Part shown: positions 41,372-47,221 of the stretch, piece after piece
How the letters are laid out: the number at the start of each line of letters is the position of its first letter
Numbering within the stretch: the stretch's first letter is position 1
Source of the DNA: Thermoplasmata archaeon
Lineage (GTDB): Archaea > Thermoplasmatota > Thermoplasmata > Thermoplasmatales > Thermoplasmataceae
DNA length: 47,221 bases
Assembly (NCBI GenBank): GCA_021821635.1
Contig: JAKACH010000004.1
Span: 1 to 47,221, forward strand
Direction of reading: 5' to 3'
Program-made: the position numbers and the translations under genes
Notes under the pieces: model-generated
What the model was told of the DNA's origin: nothing
What the model saw: the letters and a program-made list of their open reading frames with translations, nothing else
The model's database searches: none

Positions 41372-42214
41372 TCAGTAAAGAGGCTTATAAAGAATTCCTG
41401 TCTCGGCAGTGAGTTCAGAGGCTTCGCTGTTGCATTCTACATTATACTGCCCCGCAAGTCTTTTTATTGTTGATTCCCTGTTTTCCCACCACTTCCGCCT
41501 GTCGAGTGTCTTCATGGAGGATCCCCATTCGGAACCCAGAGTTTCGCCCAGCATAGACCTCGCACCGCTGTATGGATTAAGAAGATCGTAAATAACCCTG
41601 ATCTTAAGATCTGATGCTATCGAAATAAGAGCTTCGATCGATTCGTCGGAATCATTGATTCCAGGAATTATGGGCCCAAGAAACATCCAGGTCTTGATAC
41701 CGTTCCTGCTGAGTCCGCGGAGAGTCCTTATCCTTGCATCCGGGAGCGGGGACTTCCTGTCTATGAGCCTTGATATCTCCTTATCAGGCGTTGCAAGGCT
41801 TACACCCGCGTCAAGCCCTTTCTTGCCTCGCAGAATGTCCAGATCCCTGAGCACGAGGGGAGACTTTGTCTGGATTGAGACTCTGAAACCGTTTGCGAGA
41901 AGCAGCCCAATAGCCTGGCGTGAAAGCCTGTATCTTGCCTCTATTGGCTGATAAGGGTCAGTAATGGTCGATATCCCCACGAGTCCTCTTCTTTTGCTCT
42001 TGATCTCCTTCTGCAGAACCCCAATGATGTTGGTCCTGACCCTTACGGTGTCGCCCCAGGTCTCAGCGGATTGGCCTGGCGTGATGTCAGCAGCGTAGCA
42101 GTACCTGCAGCCATGTGCACATCCAAGATATGCGTTGAAAGCATAATCCAGTTCCACCATTCCCGACCTGTTGAGAGCCGACTTGGCCTTCATTTCCAGT
42201 ACACGCATTTCCAT
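41372..42214 (-). CDS. Radical SAM protein of the SplB/Rv2578c-like type
   Basis: A 280-residue radical SAM enzyme. The cluster motif is GCAHGCRYCYAADI (CX3CX2C), preceded by ELDYAFNAYLGC, and the typical STITDPYQPIEARYRLSRQAI and SIQTKSPLVLRDLDIL follow. This group is close to the spore photoproduct lyase-like proteins, whose members act on DNA or nucleotides, but its reaction is unproven. ATG 42214 overlaps the Nre stop as TGATG, so it is translationally coupled to Nre. Two internal GTG/ATG codons nearby could also start it. Confidence 0.85.
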   Translation of the reverse strand: MEMRVLEMKAKSALNRSGMVELDYAFNAYLGCAHGCRYCYAADITPGQSAETWGDTVRVRTNIIGVLQKEIKSKRRGLVGISTITDPYQPIEARYRLSRQAIGLLLANGFRVSIQTKSPLVLRDLDILRGKKGLDAGVSLATPDKEISRLIDRKSPLPDARIRTLRGLSRNGIKTWMFLGPIIPGINDSDESIEALISIASDLKIRVIYDLLNPYSGARSMLGETLGSEWGSSMKTLDRRKWWENRESTIKRLAGQYNVECNSEASELTAETGILYKPLY

Positions 42215-43464
42215 CACGCAGCAATATATCGATCCAGAGAACCGGCTTTAAGGTACCTGTATATGGTGGATTGTGAGAGCCACTTTTCGACAGGTATCTT
42301 CATCTGCGTCTTCAGGTACAGAATGCAACTCTCTATGTCGTCTAACTGCAAGGGTTTACTGTTGAACATTTCCCTGAGGTTTTCCCTCACGTACCAGACA
42401 CCAACAGGGAGGTTGAATCCAGGGTATATCTCTCTCCACAAGAGAGGGATTGCCATCCTCTTCCTCTTCAGCATATATTCCGTTGCAGCAAGTCTTGAAG
42501 CATAATAACAGCCGCCAATCCCGGGGTAGTCCTTCCTCCCGTTGTAACCCTCATAATCGATCTCCACCTCAGCATCAGATCCCCAGGTGTTCCATGTGCT
42601 GCCAGGAAACCATGCTTCTCCCCATTCAAACTGCCAGTTTCCTGGAGCCATTATTCCCATGAAGAGATTTCCACTTGTTTTTCGCACGAAAACCTCAAAC
42701 TTGTCGACTGACTCCATTCCCTTCAGTGTTTTCAGATTGAGATCTGAAACATTCTTGTCAACCGCGGTTATTGACCATCTGGTAGGGACTGCCCTGCGAT
42801 CTTCCTTTACACCGAATGCGCCTGTGCTCAGTATTTTCGATAGTCTGGAAACGTCAATTCCCCTGGTGTAAAGATCGTAGATGGCATTGACTGCCCTCAG
42901 ATCTGTGTCATTGAATGCGCGCTCAACGTATGGTTCTATTTTCACATTCCCATAAGATATGTTCTTAAGCGGAGCGGAGGGTCCCATTGGAGGAGTGTAT
43001 TCAGAAAGCACTATTTTCGATGAAAGCATGCTCTTGCTGAAAATCATCTCCATGTCAACAGGCTTGCTTGCCATAGATAGAAGTTGGGTGTCCAGAAGCT
43101 TGCTGTCGGGGGAGGATGCATTTTTCACAGAAACTTCCATTCCGCCCCTAAGCATTGAGAGACGCATTGAAAGGAATTTTTCCATGTCCATTTTCATCCA
43201 ATCCTTGGGTGTCTCATAACTTTCGGTTTCCCCGAATTCCGGTGGGGTGGAAGGATAAACTTTGATCTTTGGGTAACCAAACCTACCAACAAACACAGAT
43301 GGCGGAGATGATCCTGATACCTCATTCTTAATCTGCCTCTCGAATTTGGGTGTTACCATTGTGCTGACCAGTATTGGGCAGTATGAGAGGCCGCAAAGAT
43401 TCTTCGCAGACCTGCACTTAATGCAGAGCGATGCGGGTATATTGAACGAGGTCTTGAATTGCAT
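42214..43464 (-). CDS. nre: Archaeal DNA repair protein Nre
   Basis: A 416-residue protein of the archaeal Nre family. The N-terminal zinc motif is CIKCRSAKNLCGLSYCPIL, followed by SGSSPPSVFVGRFGYPKIKVYP, which is the family core, and WYVRENLREMF near the end. In haloarchaea NreA binds PCNA through a C-terminal PIP-like peptide; here the chain ends YRYLKAGSLDRYIAA, which could play that role although it lacks the usual aromatic pair. The gene is followed directly by the radical SAM gene and then PCNA, suggesting a DNA damage unit. Confidence 0.87.
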   Translation of the reverse strand: MQFKTSFNIPASLCIKCRSAKNLCGLSYCPILVSTMVTPKFERQIKNEVSGSSPPSVFVGRFGYPKIKVYPSTPPEFGETESYETPKDWMKMDMEKFLSMRLSMLRGGMEVSVKNASSPDSKLLDTQLLSMASKPVDMEMIFSKSMLSSKIVLSEYTPPMGPSAPLKNISYGNVKIEPYVERAFNDTDLRAVNAIYDLYTRGIDVSRLSKILSTGAFGVKEDRRAVPTRWSITAVDKNVSDLNLKTLKGMESVDKFEVFVRKTSGNLFMGIMAPGNWQFEWGEAWFPGSTWNTWGSDAEVEIDYEGYNGRKDYPGIGGCYYASRLAATEYMLKRKRMAIPLLWREIYPGFNLPVGVWYVRENLREMFNSKPLQLDDIESCILYLKTQMKIPVEKWLSQSTIYRYLKAGSLDRYIAA

Positions 43465-44555: not shown

Positions 44556-46163
44556 ATGAAATATATAAACAAGATTTTGGCCCTACTCTTCGTCCTTCTT
44601 TTCTTAGCAGTAGTTCCAGTGCAATTTCTTTACAGATCCTGGGCATATGTTGAGGTTTCGCTCCACCTTGCATCAATTTTCAGCGCATACGAGACTTTTC
44701 ACATTATAGTTGTTGCTGCCCTTCTGTTCATAATTTTTGCCGCAATGAGACTCAGGAGGCTGATAGGCTGGGAATCGGGAAGCTATTCCCTTCTGGCAAT
44801 AGTTATACTTCTCACCATGTCACTTCTGCAGAACCCGCTGAGTTTAGTTGAAACCCTGGTTCTCCTTGTTATAGTGCTTGCCATATCTTCTGCAATATTC
44901 TTATATGAATTCAGATCCAAGAGGCGACGCTTTCTTTTTCTTGCCCCAGTCCTTGCATCCCTGATCATAGCATATTTGCTTCCCCTTTATGATATAGTGT
45001 TCTACGCCTTCTTCCTGTTTGTTGCTGCTACCGTCGTCAGGCCGCCTGTCAAGGAGTTGCAGCCCAAGGATGCAAAGGGCAAAGAGGGTGCGAAGACAGC
45101 AGAGAAGACAGAACCAGATGTGCCCGAGAAACAGGCGCAACCGCCCAGTCCGGTAGAAGCCGTTCCAGCTCAACCCGATCCGAGAACAATTATAGATGAA
45201 GTCCCTCCCGATCTAGACTCAGTACCGCAAAGCGTCTCATGGCCCAGCCAGAGCGATTATTCGAGGGCCATGCAGAATCTTGAGTTCAGCATTTCCAAGG
45301 AGAGGGGAGAAATACTTTCTTCAAAGATTGTTCCTAATCCGTATGTAAACATGCCTGGAAACGTTGTTTATTCCTCGGGAAATTACGGAACAGTATTCAA
45401 GCTGCAGAATGGACAGTCTGCCCATGCTCTGAAATGCTTTACCCGCAGCAAACCTGATCTTAGTAAACGCTATTACCTCATTTCAAAAGCAATTTCACGC
45501 TTCAATGATGGGTCCACTTTTGCGTCTTTCAGTTATCTGCCAAAGACTGTGAGGACACTTAAGAATCCTGCAGTCTATTTTCCTGCATTGTTAATGGAGT
45601 GGATAGACGGGGTCAATCTGAATTCATACATTTCCAATAATCTCGAAACGCCCCGAAAGATTTCAGACGTTGCGAAAAAATTCCTGTCTGTGGCTGTCAG
45701 GTTGCAGTCCTACGGAATGTCACACGGCGACATATCAGGAGATAATGTCATGGTAAACTCATCGGATGGAATTACGCTTGTTGACTATGATGGCATGTAT
45801 GTACCCAGCCTCAAGGGAATGAAGGCTCCAGAGAATGGACATGATCATTTCCAGCATCCGCAGAGAACTACATCGACGTATAGTGAGCGGCTGGACAATT
45901 TCTCCGTTCTTGTGACATATCTTTCCCTACTCGCAGTGGCATCTGATCCTTCCATGTGGGGCAGATATAATAGAGGTGACCAGGATTGCCTGCTTTTCAG
46001 GAAAAGTGATTTCCTTATCCCTGACAGATCTCCGCTAATAAAAGATCTTCTTGACAAAAAAGGCAGGATAAGAAAGCTGACAAAGCTTCTTGTTGAGGCA
46101 CTTGAACATGACCCTCTCTGGGACGGCATAGATCCAGACAAGCTGGCTAAGATACAGAGGTGA
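44556..46163 (+). CDS. Membrane-anchored protein kinase of the YegI/TerY-P type
   Basis: A 535-residue protein. Residues 1-160 hold about five membrane helices; 165-225 are a charged, Pro-rich linker; 255-520 are a kinase domain. Motifs: glycine loop SSGNYGTVF (273-281), Lys293 in HALKCF, catalytic loop HGDISGDNV with Asp392 and Asn397, DYDG (410-413) in place of DFG, then MYVPSLKG and FQHPQR. The DYDGM(Y/F/W)VP...QHPxR signature marks the YegI and Ter-linked kinases of bacteria. All catalytic residues are present, so it should be active, facing the cytoplasm. No vWA or PP2C gene, the usual partners, is in view. The stop codon lies inside the right end of the adjacent TnpB element, so the native C-terminus may have been longer. 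Confidence 0.85.
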   Translation: MKYINKILALLFVLLFLAVVPVQFLYRSWAYVEVSLHLASIFSAYETFHIIVVAALLFIIFAAMRLRRLIGWESGSYSLLAIVILLTMSLLQNPLSLVETLVLLVIVLAISSAIFLYEFRSKRRRFLFLAPVLASLIIAYLLPLYDIVFYAFFLFVAATVVRPPVKELQPKDAKGKEGAKTAEKTEPDVPEKQAQPPSPVEAVPAQPDPRTIIDEVPPDLDSVPQSVSWPSQSDYSRAMQNLEFSISKERGEILSSKIVPNPYVNMPGNVVYSSGNYGTVFKLQNGQSAHALKCFTRSKPDLSKRYYLISKAISRFNDGSTFASFSYLPKTVRTLKNPAVYFPALLMEWIDGVNLNSYISNNLETPRKISDVAKKFLSVAVRLQSYGMSHGDISGDNVMVNSSDGITLVDYDGMYVPSLKGMKAPENGHDHFQHPQRTTSTYSERLDNFSVLVTYLSLLAVASDPSMWGRYNRGDQDCLLFRKSDFLIPDRSPLIKDLLDKKGRIRKLTKLLVEALEHDPLWDGIDPDKLAKIQR

Positions 46164-46180
46164 CATCCTCCCAAGACTAA
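46161..46180 (-). repeat. Right-end motif of the TnpB element, copy 2
   Basis: TTAGTCTTGGGAGGATGTCA on the minus strand includes the tnpB stop codon (46177-46179) at one side and the kinase stop codon (46161-46163, TGA on plus) at the other. It matches the decayed element at 20552-20571 in 17 of 20 bases. Confidence 0.65.
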
Positions 46181-47221
46181 AGAGCGTGGGCTTCCTGTTT
46201 CAGCCAGTGTACCTGCCCTATTCCCTCCCTTGCGAGAAGGCTCAGGGTATCTATACTCCTGTCCACAGGCGTTAATTCCCCACTGTCCGTGGGTATTCCG
46301 GTCTTTATGAGACCGAACTGCTTTATGTTTTTTGCGGCATTCCATTCCCTTTCATGTGCGGTATTGCATTGCGGGCAGATCCATGTTCTTTCACCGAGTT
46401 TCAGGTTGTGGATATATCCACAGTGTGAGCACATCCTTGATGAAGGATCGAACCTTCCTATATCTATTATGCTCTTCCCTCTCTGCAATGCCTTGGTTTT
46501 CAGCATTGCCATGAAAGACGACCATCCTGCATCTGCTATGCTCCTTGCGAGATGGTGGTTCTTCATCATTCCCAAAACGTTCAGGTCTTCCGTTATTACT
46601 GTGTCATATGCCTTGAGCATTGCATCTGATACCTTGTTATGGAGATCCAGTCTCTGGTTTGCTATGTGTTCGTGCGCTTTAGCCACTTTTACTCTTGCCT
46701 TGTTCCTGTTTCTTGATCCCTTCTGCTTTCGGGAGAGCCTCTTCTGCAATAACGCCAGTTTCTTTTCCGATTTCTTGAGATTTTTGGGATTGTCAATTTG
46801 CAATCCATCCGATGTCGTGAGGAATACCTTTATGCCGACATCGATACCAATGGATGTACATGCTTCAATCCTTACAGGTCCAGGTACTTTCTTTCCGGTC
46901 TCGGCGAGTATTGAGGCATAATATTTCCCAGATGATGTTTTTGATATGGTGAGGCTTCTCATTTCACCTTCAATGTTCCTGTGCATGAAGAGACGCAATG
47001 GGGTCTTGAACTTCGGAATTGTAAGATGATTGTCCTTAATGGCGAAATGCTGTGGAACCGTGAATGAACCACCGTTTCTTTTTTTCCTGAAGGAGGGATA
47101 TCCTGAAACCTTCCTGAAGAATCCATGAAATGCACTGTCAAGATGCATCAATTCCTGTTGCAGGCTTTGTGAATTGACCTCGTTCAACCACTCCCTTTCT
47201 TCCTTCAATGCGGGAAGGAGA
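46177..47221 (-). CDS. tnpB: TnpB (IS605/IS1341-type RNA-guided nuclease), N-terminus beyond window
   Basis: The open frame runs off the window edge; the visible part is 348 residues. It has the N-terminal helical region with LNEVNSQSLQQELMHLD and FFRKVSGYPSFRKKR, RuvC-I in SIGIDVGIK, RuvC-II in VITEDLNVLG, a zinc ribbon with CSHCGYIH and CPQCNTAH, and RuvC-III in HEREWNAAKNI. In the last motif Glu stands where Asp is usual (DRDxNAA), whereas the decayed copy at 19.9 kb keeps Asp. Whether the enzyme still cuts DNA is uncertain. No tnpA gene is seen. An upstream TTG at 47208 is not a likely start because homology extends past it. Confidence 0.88.
   Translation of the reverse strand, partial: LLPALKEEREWLNEVNSQSLQQELMHLDSAFHGFFRKVSGYPSFRKKRNGGSFTVPQHFAIKDNHLTIPKFKTPLRLFMHRNIEGEMRSLTISKTSSGKYYASILAETGKKVPGPVRIEACTSIGIDVGIKVFLTTSDGLQIDNPKNLKKSEKKLALLQKRLSRKQKGSRNRNKARVKVAKAHEHIANQRLDLHNKVSDAMLKAYDTVITEDLNVLGMMKNHHLARSIADAGWSSFMAMLKTKALQRGKSIIDIGRFDPSSRMCSHCGYIHNLKLGERTWICPQCNTAHEREWNAAKNIKQFGLIKTGIPTDSGELTPVDRSIDTLSLLAREGIGQVHWLKQEAHAL

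Follow-up and report, generated by a model that had tools for sequence, protein, structure and literature searches.

The systems closest to the locus studied here have been described in bacteria. In Escherichia coli, the kinase YegI is membrane-bound and autophosphorylates, and PphC dephosphorylates it, according to PMC13232886, in which a paper describing YegI in its title as lacking conserved motifs is cited. The second system is TerY-P. A form of it with an OB-fold kinase is shown to be active against phages, and the role hypothesised for TerY-P is that of a metal-sensing switch (PMC11090510, citing Anantharaman et al. 2012 for the latter).

Here we report the analysis of a kinase gene at the end of a 47,221-nt stretch of DNA from an acid-loving thermoplasmatal archaeon (the window). 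The window makes up contig C3 of an 80% complete genome (1.36 Mb, 75 contigs). On the whole, we consider it likely that this gene provides the kinase in a complete triad of TerY-P type (vWA, PP2C and Ser/Thr kinase), which would work at the membrane as a switch of reversible phosphorylation. As in the TerY-P triads, including the antiphage one of Gao et al. 2020, the genes are adjacent and the three proteins match three PADLOC models. Unlike in those triads, the archaeal kinase gene is convergent with the PP2C gene, with overlapping 3' ends, while the genes of the bacterial relatives lie on one strand; the archaeal kinases carry a TM, PH-like or beta module at the N-terminus and lack a C-terminal OB fold or zinc ribbon; and the triad belongs to an archaeal family, outside visible defence islands. 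The likeness to YegI-PphC-YegL consists of a Hanks-type kinase, here predicted to be membrane-bound, with adjacent PP2C and vWA genes and, by prediction on the archaeal side, the same set of activities; in E. coli, however, the genes are on one strand and the membrane part follows the kinase domain. In BLASTP against E. coli, the kinase matches YegI marginally (E=2e-5), the vWA protein matches YegL with E=5e-8 and the PP2C has no significant match to PphC, and YegI itself fails the STK_OB model of TerY-P kinases at E<=0.01. A close kinship to YegI is therefore weak, and the two kinases are distant cousins.

Kinase family, catalytic residues and membrane part

The features of the locus are collected in Table 1. 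The open reading frame and its motifs HGDISGDN, DYDGMYVP (aa 410-417) and FQHPQR are present as the preliminary description gave them, and relatives at 94% down to about 38-40% identity keep the frame, showing that it is a real gene.

Table 1. Features of the triad locus (window coordinates unless contig C18 is named)
Feature	Location	Strand	Basis and remarks
Kinase gene, TerY-P (STK_OB) group, stop included	44556..46163	+	535 aa, ATG start; PADLOC PDLC02223 over aa 228-507
N-terminal membrane part, aa 1-165	44556..45050	+	Hydropathy: 5-6 hydrophobic segments; AlphaFold helices
Pro/Glu/Lys-rich disordered linker, aa 166-225	45051..45230	+	pLDDT <50 at 162-207
Hanks-type kinase domain, aa 226-535	45231..46160	+	PADLOC match, alignment, AlphaFold, Foldseek
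Glycine-rich loop SGNYGT, aa 274-279	45375..45392	+	Alignment
Catalytic loop HGDISGDN, aa 390-397	45723..45746	+	Alignments
DYDG at DFG position, aa 410-413	45783..45794	+	Alignments
FQHPQR replacing APE motif, aa 432-437	45849..45866	+	Aligned with FTPPEL of E. coli YegI
IS element with TnpB/OrfB gene	46160..47221	-	Pfam OrfB_IS605 and Cas12f1-like_TNB; C18 side (L033) 1-315
74-base end of window, identical to C18 bases 1-74	47148..47221		C18 continues the locus
PP2C gene, outside window	C18:318-1049	-	PADLOC PP2C PDLC02222, E=1.5e-26
vWA gene, outside window	C18:1053-1910	-	PADLOC TerY PDLC02224, E=1.2e-90

The assignment to the TerY-P-linked kinases, in an archaeon and apart from RIO and Bud32, is borne out by the profile scores: STK_OB (PDLC02223), matched along its kinase half, reaches 178 bits (E=1.2e-52), against 23.9 bits for the best Bud32 model (cut-off 188) and 18.5 bits for RIO1 (cut-off 22). 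Pfam gives the 535-aa protein a weak protein kinase match below its own cut-off (E=2.9e-5). The best Foldseek matches of the kinase model are PknB, GCN2, PKR and RAF kinases, and RIO and Bud32 are absent among the 50 matches listed. With profile scores far under that of STK_OB and a fold nearest to PknB and GCN2, membership in RIO or Bud32 is ruled out. The STK_OB match stops at about position 272 of 562, and the OB fold part is absent.

It had been stated that all catalytic residues are present, which holds for the glycine loop (SSGNYG, conserved in the alignments) and for Lys293, Asp392, Asn397 and Asp410, invariant or nearly so among 19 archaeal and two cyanobacterial sequences. It does not hold for the alpha-C Glu, as the predicted alpha-C helix has no invariant Glu in the alignment, nor for the APE position, which is occupied by FQHPxR. 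Judged from these residues, the natural reading is that the kinase would be active but atypical.

The N-terminal membrane part is likewise confirmed, while its count of five helices stands for the AlphaFold model (3-66, 72-88, 97-118, 126-141 and 145-160) and not for hydropathy, which gives six segments (aa 7-25, 48-66, 79-97, 98-116, 126-144 and 147-165). The modelled helix 3-66 is long enough for two membrane passes and has low confidence at 29-44; with a mean pLDDT of 70.6 for the whole protein, the membrane part is readable for helix count only. An N-in/C-in topology with six passes would agree with the placing of basic residues, which occur at both ends of the membrane part (N-terminus and after segment 6) and in the loops joining segments 2 to 3 and 4 to 5. 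By hydropathy, same-type relatives have 4-6 hydrophobic segments.

Partner genes across a contig break

The vWA and PP2C genes lie side by side at the end of contig C18 of the same genome, and with the kinase they match three consecutive PADLOC models (PDLC02222, PDLC02223 and PDLC02224). Both contig ends fall inside one TnpB/OrfB gene (46177-47220), which runs off the window and has its 5' part at C18:2-238; no TnpA is seen in the IS element (window 46160-47221, C18 1-315). A second copy of the element (95%) is located on contig C4, and the assembly broke because the contig ends sit in this repeat. For the same reason the 74-base overlap alone is insufficient to prove the join of C3 and C18. 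The join is supported by the relative G005, in which the flanks of the IS site meet without the element (GATACAGAG followed by ATAAAAATTGC), and the gene order past the vWA gene is the same as on C18. The insertion point is the 17-bp overlap of the convergent kinase and PP2C ORF ends: the kinase stop codon is supplied by the IS (AGG TGA), and the PP2C ends in FISCE where its G005 relative (L085) has FISVS, so both frames are essentially whole. The partners are thus invisible in the window because it ends inside a repeated IS element, an example of how an assembly interrupted at a transposon can reduce a triad to an apparently lone gene.

Distribution, inverted layout and N-terminal modules

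Overall, kinase, PP2C and vWA genes are found together in 21 of 41 genomes, including that of the window, and the remaining 20 genomes are without all three; in the 20 kinase-bearing relatives, PP2C and vWA always stand directly behind the kinase. All 21 triad-bearing genomes belong to the family of the window, with named bearers such as Thermogymnomonas acidicola, E-plasma, Cuniculiplasma sp. and Thermoplasma sp. MAGs. When 390 genomes from the phylum were surveyed with STK_OB, 25 were positive, 23 of them in the family; the others are G349, in another family of the class, and the more distant G395 with two copies. Three well-sequenced genera of the same family (g9, g18 and g19) have no triad in this survey, showing that the triad is dispensable. 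A search of plasmids yields two cyanobacterial relatives only, and no paper on such triads in Thermoplasmatales is found in the open-access literature, the scope of the search leaving out most subscription journals. As to single genomes, an in-frame stop or a frameshift interrupts the kinase frames of T. acidicola (L125) and L096, from draft error or decay, and the vWA frame of T. acidicola is broken too. G012 has one further PP2C of this kind (C1:1808391-1808996) about 8 kb from the triad.

We then compared the layout in 80 loci (45 archaeal, 35 bacterial). These were the best 80 among at least 563 stretches confirmed in a single scan of a collection, and the bacterial set samples the nearest relatives and not all TerY-P. 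Among the archaeal loci of these best 80, the PP2C is convergent with the kinase in all 45, their ORF ends overlap in 33, and the vWA adjoins the PP2C in all 42 whose sequence includes it. The metal motifs are intact, with the MIDAS DxSxS of the vWA in 42/42 and the GD and C-terminal DD of the PP2C in 45/45. The archaeal kinases have a median N-terminal extension of 170 aa and end 0-6 aa past the kinase domain in 45/45, leaving no C-terminal OB fold or zinc ribbon. The bacterial sequences of the best 80 (L129-L164; Myxococcota, Planctomycetota, Armatimonadota, Chloroflexota and others) are TerY-P kinases with PP2C and vWA partners, and the closest non-archaeal ones, with 34-40% identity over the kinase domain. 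They differ in the order vWA>PP2C>kinase on one strand, with the PP2C near the kinase in 26 of 35 loci (25 co-directional, one divergent), and in a C-terminal accessory part (median 389 aa, against 7 aa at the N-terminus), where 29 of 35 have predicted TM segments beyond the kinase domain. Since these 29 have predicted TM segments and YegI is membrane-bound (PMC13232886), membrane attachment is not new for the group. The unusual feature, missed by the preliminary description, is the inverted gene order together with the exchangeable N-terminal module.

The nine bacterial loci of the best 80 without a nearby PP2C are mostly from Obscuribacterales (L138, L141, L145, L147, L153, L155, L159 and L160, with no PP2C or vWA nearby), and one MAG of this group, D1_Bin_4, has several such kinases. 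True single-gene versions therefore exist, but in bacteria. G395, a distant archaeon from within the class, encodes two highly divergent kinases belonging to the group (L080 and L081), one in the one-strand vWA-PP2C-kinase order, showing that the inversion marks the thermoplasmatal clade and not archaea generally; these kinases were probably acquired separately from the thermoplasmatal triad.

In a quick kinase-domain tree, with SH-aLRT support and no bootstrap, the 43 thermoplasmatal kinases form one clade (99), and each N-terminal class, assigned by inspection and hydropathy, is again one clade: six-TM (96), PH-like (99), beta-type (95) and two-TM (100). The AlphaFold model of the PH class (pLDDT 83) has seven strands and a C-terminal helix and matches the PH domains of GRK2, TFIIH, DENND3 and others. 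A single family for the PH-like and the beta modules was rejected, with no profile similarity and an hhalign probability of 0.3%, and the two are kept apart. The kinases of L126 and G017 (L076) seem to bear two tandem PH-like repeats at the N-terminus. With one genome per genus, the pairwise distances of kinase, vWA and PP2C correlate with r 0.56-0.70 (kinase against vWA 0.70, against PP2C 0.64), compared with 0.27-0.42 for each against RpoB (0.42 for the kinase); as the mutual correlations are the better ones, the triad appears to move as a unit. The RpoB domain tree, poorly resolved, needs 9 module-class changes where the minimum is 5, and the bearer G349 falls outside the family of the window. 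Strict vertical inheritance is thus unsupported, and some transfer is possible.

These layouts suggest how the accessory domain may have come to lie at the N-terminus. A bacterial kinase gene begins right at the PP2C stop, which leaves the C-terminus of the kinase free; after an inversion of the kinase gene, its 3' end would meet that of the PP2C gene, so that the C-terminus of the kinase adjoins the PP2C end or overlaps with it and only the N-terminus is free. The accessory domain at the N-terminus would then be exchanged for other modules, as the gene anatomy suggests. We tentatively propose, at somewhat less than even confidence, that an ancestral inversion fixed the C-terminus against the PP2C and made the N-terminus a plug-in site for at least four unrelated modules (6-TM, 2-TM, PH-like and beta-type) on one signalling core, giving a modular archaeal phospho-signalling system with exchangeable sensors, in which the conserved overlap of convergent transcripts is perhaps regulatory. 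The four modules on one core form a natural experiment on signal input.

Possible functions of the triad

To our knowledge, RIO, Bud32 and a few Hanks-type kinases aside, little is understood of how archaea phosphorylate Ser and Thr reversibly, and this conserved, compact set of kinase, phosphatase and adaptor in thermoplasmatal archaea makes a testable phospho-switch. In such a switch, the N-terminal membrane module would place the kinase and perhaps tune it, and the kinase would autophosphorylate and then phosphorylate one or more partners. The neighbouring PP2C would strip the phosphates, and the vWA protein, with its intact MIDAS metal site, may be a metal-dependent adaptor or the first substrate. 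YegI and PphC are a direct precedent for two parts of the switch, kinase and PP2C (PMC13232886). As counterpoints, catalysis could be weak, given the alpha-C Glu that is not invariant and the changed APE, and the PP2C and vWA proteins appear very distant from PphC and YegL. Nor is a membrane role shared throughout the clade, as the PH and beta versions of the kinase are without membrane helices.

One more specific reading of the switch is a response to metal or tellurite, with the vWA MIDAS sensing metal and the kinase and PP2C signalling, which we regard as possible but rather doubtful. Thermoplasmatal archaea inhabit acidic, often metal-rich places, the MIDAS is intact in every vWA of the compared loci, and a metal-sensing switch is what has been hypothesised for TerY-P itself; against this, the gene families shared between the triad neighbourhoods include no recognised ter genes. 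An antiphage role, with the triad sensing infection and acting via phosphorylation like the system of Gao et al., is unlikely. The PADLOC matches of all three genes, the patchy loss of the triad in the family and a solitary type II-like methyltransferase two genes past the vWA would suit it, but the triad is a single-copy unit of the same three genes in most genera, the OB fold of the defence-tested kinase (PMC11090510) is absent, and the other neighbours tested against PADLOC give no match, those on the window side being NreA, PCNA, MsrA/B and an acetamidase-like gene. We grade this role low because of the missing OB part and the mostly non-defence neighbours, and a switch for general stress, metal or envelope signalling is more likely than phage defence. 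Still less probable is a pseudokinase scaffold that binds ATP or a partner without phosphate transfer: the altered glycine loop and APE and the lack of an invariant alpha-C Glu would agree with it, but the four catalytic residues are conserved across archaea and bacteria, a PP2C always adjoins the kinase, and YegI autophosphorylates though described as lacking conserved motifs (PMC13232886). Finally, the single-gene sensor kinase of the preliminary description, suggested by a window that holds no partner and having parallels in the bacterial kinases without PP2C, is rejected as extremely improbable, with both partners on C18, the 74-base join, the empty site in G005 and the adjacency in every kinase-bearing relative.

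For testing the phospho-switch, the cultured bearer T. acidicola, its frame broken in the draft, and the Cuniculiplasma and Thermoplasma relatives may be of help. As to the surroundings of the triad, nreA and a radical SAM gene (window 41375-43464) recur near it in several genera whose neighbourhoods differ in other respects (L063-L065, L073, L074 and L076), and the site beside these two genes is perhaps the ancestral one.
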